The notes beneath the pieces were generated by a model. The model made no database searches and had not been told where the DNA came from. It saw only the letters and a list, made by a program, of their open reading frames with translations. Of a DNA stretch of 64,000 bases, positions 21,624 to 24,712 are shown in pieces. The stretch's first letter is position 1. Each line of letters starts with the position of its first letter. The stretch spans positions 2,108,001-2,172,000 of the forward strand of contig NC_017583.1 in the NCBI RefSeq assembly GCF_000184345.1. Direction: 5' to 3'. A program made the position numbers and the translations under genes. Source of the DNA: Spirochaeta thermophila DSM 6578 (GTDB lineage: Bacteria; Spirochaetota; Spirochaetia; Winmispirales; Winmispiraceae).

Positions 21624-21794
21624 TTACACGAAATCTTTCGGCCTCCGCTCGGTCCGCTTGCATTTCTCGCAGACGGCCTGGAGTTTCATCTTGCCGTTCT
21701 GGAACACGGCCTTCATCTTCACCTCGCCGCCGCACGGACAGAAGAACTTCTGCGCACCACGGCCCACTTTCGCGTTTTTGCTTATCTTCCCCAT
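21624..21794 (-). CDS. 56-residue zinc-ribbon mini-protein
   Basis: A basic protein starting MGKISKNAKVGRGAQKFF. Cys19 and Cys21 (CPC) and Cys42 and Cys45 (CEKC) form a probable four-cysteine zinc site. It ends RRPKDFV. The ATG has CGGAGGAG about six bases upstream and an own promoter at 21828-21857. It lies between rpsT and the RicT-like gene. The size, charge and zinc ribbon recall small ribosome-associated proteins, but no family is recognised and the role is unknown. Confidence 0.75.
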   Translation of the reverse strand: MGKISKNAKVGRGAQKFFCPCGGEVKMKAVFQNGKMKLQAVCEKCKRTERRPKDFV

Positions 21795-21827: not shown

Positions 21828-21857
21828 ATACTAACACACGCTCGCTCGATGTGTCAA
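21828..21857 (-). promoter_or_regulatory. Promoter of the zinc-ribbon gene
   Basis: TTGACA (21857-21852), 18 bases, TAGTAT (21833-21828). The perfect -35 overlaps the last codons of the RicT-like gene. Confidence 0.6.
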
Positions 21858-22777
21858 TCGAGCGACGAGAGGGCTCCCTCCTTGAAGCTCCACGTCTTTC
21901 CGTCCTCGTCCCGGACGAAGGCCTCCTCCGGGAGCACGAGCCGCTGCCCTTCGGGCCCTGCGAGGATCACCTGCCGGGTGAGGATGTTCACCTCCAGCAC
22001 CTTGTAGTGTGCACCTTCGTAGCGGAGGCGCGTATTCTCCGGCGGGAAGTGGGCCCTCTCCACCTCGTAGGTCTCGGCCTCATAGGCGAGACAGCAGAGG
22101 AGCCTTCCGCAAGGTCCCGATATCTTCATCGAGTTGAGGGAGAGGTTCTGCGCCTTGGCCATCCTGATGGAAACCGGGACGAGGTGATCGGTGACGGCAT
22201 GGCAGCAGAGTCCACGACCGCAGATCCCCACCCCACCCAGGAGACGGGTCTCATCCCGGACGCCGATCTGGCGGAGCTCTATCCGCTTCTTGAAGATCGC
22301 CACGAGATCCCGGACGAGGGCCCGGAAATCGACCCTTCCCTCGGCGGTGAAGAAGAAGAGGATCTTCGGCTCGTCCGTGAGATAGTGCACCGAGACCAGC
22401 TTCATGTCGAGACGGTGCTCCTCGATCTTCTGGATGCAGATCCGGAAGGCGCGGTCCTCTTCCCCCTTGAGGTGTTCGTACCGCTCGATATCCTCGGCCG
22501 TGGCCTTGCGGTGGATGCGCCGAAGCACCTCTTCGGGCTTCCTCCCCTGGAGGAATCGGGAGATGTCCCGCACCGGTCCGAGCACCTTCCCCAGATCCTT
22601 TCCGTACTTGCTCTCTACGATCACATGATCTCCGGGGAGCGGGGTCCACCCTTGCGGCTCTCTGCAGATCTCGGTCTCGCTCGTATGGACAACCTTCACC
22701 ACCCAGGCGGCGGGGCTCCCCTCGGTGTGAGGTTCACACCCCCCGCAGGAGGCACAGGGGCTCTGCTGTTCGTTCAT
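21854..22777 (-). CDS. PSP1/RicT-type cysteine-rich protein
   Basis: The protein has 307 residues. An N-terminal CASCGGC cluster precedes the PSP1 domain. GVGICGRGLCCHA and SGPCGRLLCCLAYE repeat a C-x4-CC pattern typical of RicT (YaaT), which in Bacillus joins RicA and RicF around Fe-S clusters to steer RNase Y. That role is known for Bacillus only. The ATG at 22777 is preferred to a TTG two codons earlier; neither has a strong ribosome-binding site. It is last of a four-gene unit with M23 peptidase, bactofilin and YaaR, and in Bacillus yaaR and yaaT are also neighbours. Confidence 0.88.
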   Translation of the reverse strand: MNEQQSPCASCGGCEPHTEGSPAAWVVKVVHTSETEICREPQGWTPLPGDHVIVESKYGKDLGKVLGPVRDISRFLQGRKPEEVLRRIHRKATAEDIERYEHLKGEEDRAFRICIQKIEEHRLDMKLVSVHYLTDEPKILFFFTAEGRVDFRALVRDLVAIFKKRIELRQIGVRDETRLLGGVGICGRGLCCHAVTDHLVPVSIRMAKAQNLSLNSMKISGPCGRLLCCLAYEAETYEVERAHFPPENTRLRYEGAHYKVLEVNILTRQVILAGPEGQRLVLPEEAFVRDEDGKTWSFKEGALSSLD

Positions 22778-22797
22778 ACCCAACGACTCTACTCGTT

Positions 22798-23298
22798 TCA
22801 GGAAAATAAATCAACGAGGAGGCCTTGGATCTCCTCCACCCGTGCGAGAAGGGAAAGCTGATCCACCTGTTGCAAGAGGATCCCCGAGATCAAACGCTCC
22901 AGCTTCTCGTCGATCACCCTCACGAGGGCGTACTTCTTCCTCCGGACGAGGTGAGATCCTGAAGTGTGCTCTTCGAGCGTGAGCATGTGCTTTACGGCGT
23001 AGGAGAGGAGGCGTTTCACCGCCTCCCTGTAGGCCCGCGCCTGGGAGAGCGTAGGATGTTCTTTCAGGCGCTCGCCGGCCTCGTGCACCCCATCGACGAG
23101 GGCCTCGAGGCTCTGTACCGTCCCCCCACCCTCGTCCACTCCGGGATGTCCATCCACCTCCGGCGCCGTCTCCCTGGGGAACAGGGACCGGAAGGACACA
23201 CGCTTCCCTTTCCGGGATCTCTTCCCACGGGGAGGCGCACCTGCTTCGGGATGGAGCGAGGCGAAGAAGTAGCCGGCTCCCGGCTCCACCGGTTCCAT
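22798..23298 (-). CDS. YaaR/DUF327 family protein
   Basis: The protein has 166 residues. A basic, low-complexity N-terminus (to about 45) is followed by an all-helical domain ending VRVIDEKLERLISGILLQQV, which fits DUF327/YaaR. The ATG overlaps the bactofilin stop as ATGA, so translation is coupled. The upstream in-frame extension lies inside bactofilin and was rejected. Function is unknown. The pairing with a RicT homologue matches the Bacillus yaaR-yaaT order and supports the call. Confidence 0.75.
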   Translation of the reverse strand: MEPVEPGAGYFFASLHPEAGAPPRGKRSRKGKRVSFRSLFPRETAPEVDGHPGVDEGGGTVQSLEALVDGVHEAGERLKEHPTLSQARAYREAVKRLLSYAVKHMLTLEEHTSGSHLVRRKKYALVRVIDEKLERLISGILLQQVDQLSLLARVEEIQGLLVDLFS

Positions 23299-23678
23299 CA
23301 GCCCGCCGCCCTGGAAGGATGGATGACCGGCGTGTCCCCGTCCTGGGCTGCCTCCGGACGGACCGCACACCGGGCATGGAAAACCGCACCCTCATCGATC
23401 CTGAGGGCCGGCGCCCGCACGGTCCCCATCACCACCCCGGAGGAAAGGAGATGAACCCCCTTCCTCACCTCCATCTCGCCCCTGAAGACCCCACCGACCG
23501 TCACCTTCCCCGCCCTGAGCACTCCCTCACAGCGGGCGTTCTTTCCGATGACCACCTCTCCACTCACCTCGATGGTCCCTATCACATCCCCGTCGACACG
23601 GAGGAAGTGGGCACCCTTTATCGTGCCCTCCAGGAGTGTACCTGCGCCGATGACGGAATTGACGTGTGTCTCGCTCAT
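23298..23678 (-). CDS. Bactofilin
   Basis: A 126-residue polymer-forming cytoskeletal protein. The central part is a right-handed beta-helix with short repeats (GTLLEGTIKGAHFLRVDGDV, GTIEVSGEVVIGKNARCEGV, then GKVTVGGVFRGEM), flanked by short disordered tails. It would form filaments at the inner membrane without nucleotide. The ATG overlaps the M23 peptidase stop and its stop overlaps yaaR. Bactofilins coupled to M23 peptidases shape curved and helical cells (CcmA with Csd proteins in Helicobacter), so a role in cell shape is a reasonable inference. Confidence 0.92.
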   Translation of the reverse strand: MSETHVNSVIGAGTLLEGTIKGAHFLRVDGDVIGTIEVSGEVVIGKNARCEGVLRAGKVTVGGVFRGEMEVRKGVHLLSSGVVMGTVRAPALRIDEGAVFHARCAVRPEAAQDGDTPVIHPSRAAG

Positions 23679-24712
23679 CAATCCTCTACCACCACATGCT
23701 GGTGAGAGATATTCAAGAACTTGAGAGGATCGATCACCTCGGAACCGATCATCACCTCGTAGTGGAGGTGCCGACCCGTGGAGAGGCCGGTGGACCCCAT
23801 CATCCCGATCACCTGTCCCTGATGGACCTCCTGCCCCTTCTTCACCAGATAGTACTGGAGATGGGCGTAACGGGTATAGAATCCATAGCGATGGCGGATG
23901 ACCACGTAGTTCCCCCATCCAAGGGGATCCGACTTCGCCTCCACCACCTTGCCGTTCGCGGTGGCCAAGACGGGCACCGCATAGGGATAGGCGATATCCA
24001 CCCCCTTGTGAAGGTACCAGTACTTGTAGAAGGGATGGATCGAGGGACCGAAGTACTGGGTGATGATACCCCTGCCGCCCTGGACGGGCCATATGCTCGG
24101 GATATTCACCAACAGTTCCTTCTGAGCATTCAACACGTTCTGTACCTGGGAAAGCGAATCGACCGCCTGCTGGAGGGAAACCTTGAGCTCCCGGATCTCC
24201 GCGAGCTCCTTGACGTCTCCTGCACTCAAGGAGAGTTCGTGAGAGATCCCTGCGAGATCACCCTCTTCCTGGAGATCGTCGCCGGGGTCGTCCCCCGTCT
24301 CTCCCAGGAGCGAGGCGGTCTGGGCGAGGGACTGCTTGAAAAGGGCCGCCACCTCCCGGAGCTCCGAGAGCTCGCCCTTCACCTTGTCCAGGTTCGCCTC
24401 CACGGAGGAGAGCGAGGCCTCCTTCTGTTCGAGGAGGGCCGTGATGCCCGTGACCCTCGAGCCGGTCCACACGAAGCCCGCTATCACCCCCACGAGGAGG
24501 GCGCCCAGAAAGAAGAGGAGGAAGAGGGACACCTGGATATTGATCACCTTGTCTTCGAAGTGGGGGATGAGCATGATGGTGTACTTCTTTTTTAGAATGC
24601 CCCCAAACCTGCCGAGGACCCCACCTATCGCCCGCCCCAGCCGCTTGATGCGCCAGAAGGCCTTCCTGCTCGCCGCCTCTTCCAGACGTTTATAATTACG
24701 TGTCACTGACAC
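23678..24712 (-). CDS. Membrane-anchored M23 (LytM) peptidoglycan peptidase
   Basis: The protein has about 344 residues. A basic cytoplasmic N-terminus is followed by one membrane helix at about 62-84, a coiled coil at about 90-200, and an M23 domain. LHKGVDIAYP and HLHYEV give the His-x3-Asp and HxH zinc ligands. It likely cuts peptide cross-links. GTG at 24712 has AAGGGG eight bases upstream; a GTG two codons later is also possible. It is first of the unit M23-bactofilin-yaaR-ricT, with a promoter at 24745-24774. Confidence 0.92.
   Translation of the reverse strand: MSVTRNYKRLEEAASRKAFWRIKRLGRAIGGVLGRFGGILKKKYTIMLIPHFEDKVINIQVSLFLLFFLGALLVGVIAGFVWTGSRVTGITALLEQKEASLSSVEANLDKVKGELSELREVAALFKQSLAQTASLLGETGDDPGDDLQEEGDLAGISHELSLSAGDVKELAEIRELKVSLQQAVDSLSQVQNVLNAQKELLVNIPSIWPVQGGRGIITQYFGPSIHPFYKYWYLHKGVDIAYPYAVPVLATANGKVVEAKSDPLGWGNYVVIRHRYGFYTRYAHLQYYLVKKGQEVHQGQVIGMMGSTGLSTGRHLHYEVMIGSEVIDPLKFLNISHQHVVVED

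Follow-up and report, generated by a model that had tools for sequence, protein, structure and literature searches.

Four genes follow one another on one strand of the genome of Spirochaeta thermophila DSM 6578: those of an M23 peptidase, a bactofilin, a YaaR (DUF327) protein and RicT. A sequence-only reading saw in them a bactofilin-M23 shape module whose joint expression with YaaR and RicT links the cytoskeleton to RNA decay. What holds these four genes together, and which of them belong together in function?

The four genes and their products

The window, that is, the whole stretch of 64,000 nucleotides that was analysed (NC_017583.1, positions 2,108,001 to 2,172,000), holds the four genes in the layout and at the position first given for them, and in a Pfam search of the window each ORF exceeds the curated cut-off of its own family (Table 1). 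The overlaps of one base reported for the M23 and bactofilin genes, and for the bactofilin gene and yaaR, both take the form TGATG; ricT does lie close behind yaaR, with a gap of 14 nt from a TTG start or 20 nt from an ATG start. The promoter-like site at the far end would fit ricT being the last gene of the unit.

Table 1. Features of the four-gene locus (positions in the window)
Feature	Position	Strand	Basis
M23 peptidase	23678-24712	minus	PF01551, 109.9 bits
Bactofilin	23298-23678	minus	PF04519, 84.6 bits
YaaR	22798-23298	minus	PF03885 (DUF327), 95.5 bits (cut-off 25.8)
RicT	21854-22777 (ATG start) or 21854-22783 (TTG start)	minus	PF04468 (PSP1), 114.1 bits
TGATG junction, M23 stop/bactofilin start, 1-base overlap	23678-23680	minus	sequence
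TGATG junction, bactofilin stop/yaaR start, 1-base overlap	23298-23300	minus	sequence
Promoter-like TTGACA-18-TAGTAT across ricT stop	21828-21857	minus	consensus match only

The M23 peptidase is predicted to be a bitopic, LmdC-like protein with a short cytoplasmic N-terminus followed by one transmembrane helix. A motif and hydropathy scan places YTIMLIPHFEDKVINIQVS in the cytoplasmic stretch, immediately N-terminal to the helix, which lies at the hydropathy peak around residue 63; the M23 domain is C-terminal to it. A simple hydropathy scan finds such a peak in 62 of 65 M23 proteins, and in an alignment of family representatives a TIMLIPHSEKKIFNFQIS-type stretch ahead of the transmembrane helix is conserved across them. 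The metal-binding HxxxD and HxH are both present in the window protein (H235KGVD, and HLH at 315). Since the strict M23 active-site pattern fits 44 of the 65, it cannot be assumed that all homologues are active. The bactofilin (126 residues, starting MSETHVNSV) is without an MFSKKKK-like membrane-targeting N-terminus, and a loose form of that pattern fits only one of the 85 bactofilins linked to YaaR (their starts being taken from the longest ORFs).

YaaR, at 166 residues, belongs to a widespread family without known function. Its structural model (mean pLDDT 70.7) has some 58 initial residues of low confidence and then a four-helix bundle, for which the closest folds are 2qup (Z 15.1) and 2p61 (Z 14.9), both of them DUF327 proteins. 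(Similarity to FAT domains and catenin, at a Z of about 12, reflects a common helical-bundle arrangement and is no sign of kinship. A wide YaaR alignment offered no stretch conserved enough for scanning; a smaller alignment was usable.)

Gene order across the spirochaetes

Other genomes share this gene order; it recurs phylum-wide, and the four genes are part of an old cluster. Of 138 spirochaete genomes with YaaR, 12 (all of the family f16) were left out and 126 fetched; one locus (G120) is a contig-end fragment, which leaves 125, any that are cut by contig ends being scored as without the neighbour. All four genes stand in this order at 33 of the 125 loci (12 of 40 families), nine of them with tmk between the bactofilin gene and yaaR. 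Bactofilin is directly upstream of YaaR at 85 loci, in 31 families. YaaR is flanked by neither bactofilin nor RicT in nine of the 40 families, and the named solo YaaR genes adjoin ruvA, a tsaB-like gene, tsaE or folE2, none of them flagellar. No ORF at a spirochaete locus matches two of the four profiles, as a gene fusion would.

What is new here is that YaaR is a conserved third member beside the known M23-bactofilin pair through much of the phylum; we found no description of that role in the open-licence literature. The bactofilins concerned, including the Borrelia-like copies in the position of BbbG, form a single clade (support 99/92) with the window copy inside it, in a tree that sets 48 linked rows (no family contributing more than two, the window and its own genome copy being counted separately) against 24 other spirochaete bactofilins, most of which are the best of a longer match list.

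Could this be nothing but inertia of gene order, an M23-bactofilin pair having chanced upstream of tmk-yaaR-holB-ricT in the ancestor of the phylum, with YaaR functionally unrelated to bactofilin? The presence of tmk between bactofilin and YaaR at 12 spirochaete loci speaks for it, since the adjacency may then stem from loss of tmk, as does the want of any association between DUF327 and bactofilin among 149 Bacillota (47 with both, 23 with DUF327 only, 48 with bactofilin only and 31 with neither; p 0.5, kinship ignored). Yet in six families (f4, f5, f12, f23, f40 and f42) bactofilin and YaaR are still paired where tmk, holB and RicT are gone from the neighbourhood; at two loci of another (f27) M23 directly adjoins YaaR, the bactofilin gene having disappeared from between them; and 65 of the 85 bactofilin-YaaR pairs are spaced at -80 to +30 bases, with starts taken from the longest ORFs. 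We regard inertia as the strongest of the competing explanations and nevertheless as unlikely.

The M23-bactofilin part of the locus has known counterparts. In the LmdC-BacA systems of Hyphomonas and Rhodospirillum (PMC10945521) the M23 gene likewise adjoins the bactofilin gene, and the peptidase is bitopic, with a cytoplasmic segment ahead of its transmembrane helix that binds its bactofilin partner, BacA, by way of a conserved beta-hairpin. Unlike them, the window adds YaaR as a conserved third gene, then RicT, and its bactofilin is without the usual membrane-targeting start. In Borrelia burgdorferi (PMC13393453) an M23 gene lies upstream of bbbG in the bb0246-bbbG-bb0244 group and bb0244 is cotranscribed downstream; zonal wall insertion cannot proceed without BbbG, and cells in which native bbbG and bb0244 are both turned down but mCherry-BbbG is supplied have normal growth and normal wall insertion. 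Here bb0244 corresponds to YaaR, its primers mapping inside the YaaR ORF at three of four Borrelia-like loci; the main text of that paper nowhere uses the word yaaR. (The name Borrelia-like was given to f4 from primers and chromosome layout; Leptospira-like for f23 and Brachyspira-like for f16 are inferred labels too.) RicT was not found in the four Borrelia-like genomes. The Borrelia study reports that BbbG has no close relationship with the remaining Leptospiraceae clusters, whereas BbbG-position and Leptospira-like linked copies group together in our tree.

YaaR and flagella

The wider distribution of DUF327 was followed in the Bacillota. A seeded set of 80 loci came from an alignment headed by the Bacillus halodurans protein and is biased towards its flagellar context; for that reason an unseeded draw was also made, and 40 of its 70 DUF327 loci were taken. 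Of these 40, 34 are at tmk/holB/ricT (any of tmk, holB, ricT or darA marked within 1.7 kb) and three are flagellar. No bactofilin profile match was found at the 80 seeded loci, nor at the 40 unseeded ones with up to eight neighbours each. (One M23-profile match beside DUF327, at L272, is probably spurious, relatives having DUF6115 there.)

In some Bacillota the DUF327 gene lies in flagellar neighbourhoods, which are of three kinds; in seven of seven genomes it is single-copy, and in four of those seven its neighbourhood is flagellar. Nor did we find, in the open-licence literature, any account of this single-copy gene in flagellar loci of Bacillota. FliK-like, FlhF, FlhG and SigD are our own readings of the neighbours: Pfam gives no match for the first, and the other three, which lie beside FlhA, hit SRP54, ParA-type and sigma-70 models. 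On the DUF327 gene tree, four changes between flagellar and other contexts are needed, two of them forced by starred branches, but as a FastTree of 150 columns with long branches it does not fix the number of moves. FlhA is present in 68 of 70 DUF327-positive Bacillota (the exceptions being G180 and G300, the latter negative by elimination only), and over the 149 genomes the counts are 68 with both, 2 with DUF327 only, 60 with FlhA only and 19 with neither (p 2e-4, kinship ignored); DUF327 is thus missing from 60 of 128 FlhA-positive genomes. All 149 sampled spirochaetes have FlhA.

These neighbourhoods, the near restriction of DUF327 to FlhA-positive Bacillota and the universal FlhA of the spirochaetes would all suit a YaaR that is associated with flagella in its own right, its spirochaete neighbours signifying co-expression with envelope genes and no shared complex. 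The spirochaete link to a single bactofilin clade is closer than such co-expression would require, however, and tmk/holB/ricT is the commonest context in the unseeded Bacillota sample; we consider this explanation improbable, somewhat more so than inertia.

RicT and the question of RNA decay

RicT lies within 1.5 kb downstream of YaaR on the same strand at 59 of the 125 spirochaete loci. Related loci hold tmk or holB in the gaps (holB between YaaR and RicT at 20; one member of each cluster of intervening genes was identified by Pfam), giving tmk-yaaR-holB-ricT, and the adjacency of RicT is therefore best read as a legacy of that older string. The Bacillota tmk-(darA)-yaaR-holB-ricT string likewise places YaaR ahead of RicT on one strand, and some spirochaete loci have its tmk or holB in place; it differs in that no bactofilin-M23 pair was seen upstream. 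STRING puts yaaR in one group together with tmk, holB and yaaT (PMC3814617).

The identity of RicT is borne out by its cysteines, C-x4-CC ... C-x4-CC from residue 188 in the window; all six, whose ligand roles are given in PMC6751060, are kept in 71 of 71 RicT ORFs of at least 200 residues from spirochaete loci. These motifs, and the RNase Y gene present in this genome, recall the RicAFT (Y-complex) of Bacillus (PMC6751060 and PMC10470536), in which RicT requires RicA/RicF to bind RNase Y; the difference is that RicA/RicF (Com_YlbF family) had no match in this genome, nor in 126 of 149 spirochaetes.

RicT tracks RNase Y, whereas M23, bactofilin and YaaR cohere in RicT-less genomes. RicT was found in 110 spirochaete genomes and not in 39 of the 149 (a single-protein RicT scan of genome contigs gave no match); RNase Y is in 32 of the 33 RicT-positive genomes that were tested and in 11 of all 39 RicT-negative ones (p 8e-10, kinship ignored). 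M23-bactofilin-YaaR loci without RicT directly downstream number 25, in nine families, and 21 of the 25 genomes have no RicT match anywhere. DUF327 is kept in 27 of 28 spirochaete genomes that lack RicT as well as RNase Y over the cut-off, and among the titles and abstract openings listed from the open-licence literature none ties YaaR to RNA decay. The sequence-only reading thus fares unevenly: its M23-bactofilin shape module, the conservation in spirochaetes and the RicT cysteines stand, and its placing of YaaR in RNA decay is not supported. Because RicT is best read as inherited and follows RNase Y, the other three persist without it and RicA/RicF were not found, the link from cytoskeleton to RNA decay is weakly supported, and a working operon of all four genes, with RicT and YaaR forging that link, is the least probable explanation, quite improbable in our judgement, for all the closeness of RicT, its intact cysteines, the RNase Y gene and the bactofilin gene, distinct from the linked one, that lies divergently beside a RicA/RicF-family gene in at least seven further spirochaete genomes.

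A possible adaptor between wall and flagella

The explanation that we prefer, and to which we give an even chance, is that the locus represents the LmdC-BacA pair as it occurs in spirochaetes, with YaaR as a third member, an adaptor to flagella, and with RicT separate. Bactofilin would polymerise beneath the inner membrane; having no recognisable membrane-targeting start, it would stay there by attachment to the cytoplasmic part of the bitopic M23 protein, which it would in turn concentrate. M23 would then cut peptidoglycan along the polymer and in this way set the zones of growth or the helical pitch, or the two together. YaaR, as a small four-helix bundle encoded by a gene that overlaps that of the bactofilin, would most likely serve as adaptor between the bactofilin-M23 assembly and the flagellar apparatus, not in growth, and RicT, as heir of the ancient string, would act separately with RNase Y. 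We propose, by inference, that through YaaR the wall remodelling which bactofilin directs is joined to flagella. (Hook and filament assembly in Bacillus subtilis needs bactofilins, according to PMC4627819, and motility effects of bactofilins there are strain-dependent, according to PMC9103452.) Against the preferred explanation we count these strain-dependent effects, the lack of a DUF327-bactofilin association or a bactofilin neighbour in Bacillota, the three flagellar loci in 40, the 60 of 128 FlhA-positive genomes without DUF327, the non-flagellar setting of solo YaaR genes, the nine unlinked families in 40 and the 44 of 65 M23 pattern matches.

A broader version, in which DUF327 proteins are flagellum-cytoskeleton adaptors that serve flagella directly in Bacillota and bind bactofilin-M23 in spirochaetes, so that wall cutting is coordinated with the assembly or seating of periplasmic flagella, is more speculative and rather doubtful. 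The M23-bactofilin pair was known already, and its Borrelia copy has recently been shown to direct wall growth. The persistence of YaaR beside bactofilin and its flagellar loci in Bacillota make it a testable candidate for a link between wall remodelling and flagella; bb0244 gains a family name and a prediction, that its loss would give a defect of motility or pitch and not of growth. If true, the adaptor reading would mean that a single operon ties the shape of the cell to its motility.

The four-gene locus and its spread among spirochaetes

The genes for the M23 peptidase, bactofilin, YaaR and RicT are arranged as the sequence-only reading had described them, the first three overlapping and ricT close behind: the M23/bactofilin and bactofilin/yaaR junctions are each a TGATG with one common base, and 14 nt (to a TTG) or 20 nt (to an ATG) separate the yaaR stop from the ricT start. 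A divergent tatD gene (Pfam match, PF01026) lies upstream of the M23 gene. Since a promoter-like site, recognised only by its match to the consensus, lies across the ricT stop, ricT may be the last gene of the unit. A small ORF between ricT and rpsT, to which no search gave a name, carries a CPC and CEKC pair with, by eye, the look of a zinc ribbon; the same promoter-like site stands before it.

Features discussed and their positions (G, sampled genome, G000 being that of the window)
Feature	Position	Strand or orientation	Remark
M23 peptidase, bactofilin, YaaR (DUF327), RicT (PSP1 domain)	24712 down to 21854	minus	each above Pfam family cut-off
56-codon ORF	21624-21794	minus	
Second RNase_Y_N match	G000 C1:1068077-1068286		22.8 bits, below cut-off
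RicA/RicF-family gene beside non-YaaR-linked bactofilin	G007 C3, G042 C7, G064 C49, G102 C28, G122 C28, G127 C64, G135 C169	divergent	coordinates of matches

Among 149 spirochaete genomes drawn across the phylum, bactofilin and FlhA are present in all, DUF327 in 138 and PSP1/RicT in 110. DUF327 regions were fetched for 126 of the 138 (the remaining 12 all belong to family f16), giving a usable YaaR ORF in 125, and the genes at these loci were mapped with profiles made from the window proteins. Bactofilin lies upstream of YaaR on the same strand, within 1.3 kb, at 85 of the 125 loci (31 of 40 families), and RicT downstream, within 1.5 kb, at 59 (22 families). The proposed check on gene order in spirochaetes finds it conserved, with the complete M23-bactofilin-YaaR-RicT order at 33 of the 125 loci, in 12 families; nine of the 33 have tmk between bactofilin and YaaR. 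M23-bactofilin-YaaR without RicT just downstream occurs at 25 loci (9 families), 21 of them in genomes without any RicT match and four (G001, G012, G025, G046) in genomes with RicT elsewhere; 27 loci have bactofilin-YaaR without M23. At two loci of family f27 (L106, L116) M23 adjoins YaaR with no bactofilin between them, and in the single f27 protein aligned the stretch preceding the transmembrane helix, conserved elsewhere, appears degraded. One genome of family f8 (G146, rated 99% complete) keeps M23-bactofilin-RicT (L190) and has no DUF327 match; a second bactofilin lies further along. In 9 of the 40 families mapped, YaaR has neither bactofilin nor RicT alongside. Solo YaaR genes are followed in f16 (L093, L104 and other loci) by a tsaB-like gene (TsaD-family match) and in f21 (L097, L108, L123) by tsaE, two distinct t6A genes in two lineages.

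The YaaR-linked bactofilin and published systems

A tree of 72 rows compared 48 YaaR-linked bactofilins (no family giving more than two, and both the window copy and its genome copy counted) with 24 unlinked spirochaete bactofilins, 20 of these hand-picked among the best matches listed and the other Borrelia bactofilins left out. The linked copies form one clade (support 99/92), with the Borrelia-like and Leptospira-like copies inside; the 24 unlinked ones, the two others of the S. thermophila genome among them, fall outside. A loose membrane-targeting start is found in one of 85 linked bactofilins; the commonest N-terminal motif of spirochaete bactofilins is reported to be unlike the usual one (PMC12448750).

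The suggested M23-bactofilin shape module is of a kind already known, to which YaaR is a conserved additional member. Bactofilin-M23 gene pairs are reported from 226 species, and BacA is described as bound by the cytoplasmic region of LmdC (PMC10945521). In all four Borrelia-like loci the bbbG and bb0246 primers of PMC13393453 lie in the bactofilin and M23 ORFs, respectively; the bb0244 primers match the YaaR ORF, with 4-6 mismatches, in three of the four (both primers at two loci and a single primer at another; neither matches at L078). Because growth, along with morphology and wall insertion, is reported as unaffected in Borrelia with native bbbG and bb0244 turned down and mCherry-BbbG supplied (PMC13393453), the essential growth function probably does without YaaR. 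BB_0244 of Borrelia burgdorferi, which occupies the YaaR position, has an annotated antisense RNA, ncRNA0043, altered in csrA and badR mutants according to the tables of PMC6117026. Loss of LbbD in L. biflexa compresses the helix and lowers motility (as cited in PMC11442865); that source names LIMLP_13115 as a bactofilin and LIMLP_13120 as an M23 gene and gives the LbbD orthologue as LIMLP_13155 instead. In B. subtilis, hook and filament assembly is reported to require bactofilins in one study (PMC4627819), and the effect to be strain-dependent in another (PMC9103452).

RicT and RNA decay

The further proposal, that RicT links the bactofilin cytoskeleton to RNA decay, fares less well: only position ties RicT to bactofilin, no other connection having been found in the analysis, and the association is most likely an inherited neighbourhood. 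At 12 spirochaete loci tmk lies between bactofilin and YaaR (a 13th tmk stands before YaaR in G028, at the end of a contig), and at 20 holB lies between YaaR and RicT, metG coming next in 18; tmk and holB were each named by Pfam from one cluster member. A tmk/holB/ricT context surrounds 34 of 40 DUF327 loci sampled, unseeded, from Bacillota. In the simplest history, an ancestral tmk-yaaR-holB-ricT string followed an M23-bactofilin pair, and tmk and holB later dropped out in separate lineages.

RicT itself tracks RNase Y, which is above cut-off in 32 of 33 RicT-positive genomes tested versus 11 of 39 RicT-negative ones (p = 8e-10, ignoring kinship). All four Borrelia-like genomes keep RNase Y and have no RicT; 27 of the 28 genomes with neither RicT nor RNase Y above cut-off keep DUF327. 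The S. thermophila genome has a second, weak RNase_Y_N match, and comparable ones occur in several relatives. A family search of the 149 spirochaete genomes finds RicA/RicF-family genes in 23 and none in S. thermophila. In Bacillus, RicA and RicF are reported as required for a stable RicT-RNase Y complex (PMC10470536), and their cysteines for cluster 2 (PMC6751060); since no gene of this family is found here, RicT of S. thermophila may have another mode of acting with RNase Y. At least seven of the 23 positive genomes have a RicA/RicF-family gene no more than about 500 bases from an unlinked bactofilin gene and divergent from it.

YaaR and a possible tie to the flagellum

In the predicted YaaR model (mean pLDDT 70.7), a low-confidence start precedes a four-helix bundle at residues 59-165; the model resembles both solved DUF327 proteins. 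Of 80 Bacillota loci obtained with the B. halodurans protein as seed, and so biased to its flagellar context, 70 are flagellar, nine tmk/holB/ricT and one neither; the unseeded 40 include three flagellar loci and three of neither kind. The 73 flagellar neighbourhoods, their genes named from representatives, are of three kinds: flagellin/FliS/FlhB-like with allied genes (59), FlhG-SigD-DUF6115 (12) and MotB-CheR (2, one with MotA too). DUF327 is single-copy in all seven Bacillota genomes tested, and in four of these it stands in a flagellar neighbourhood; in those four the gene itself has therefore moved. Across 149 Bacillota genomes DUF327 shows no association with bactofilin (47 of 70 DUF327-positive versus 48 of 79 negative; p = 0.5); FlhA is present in 68 of the 70 versus 60 of the 79 (p = 2e-4, uncorrected). 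The interesting part is a possible connection of YaaR with the flagellum, which we infer.
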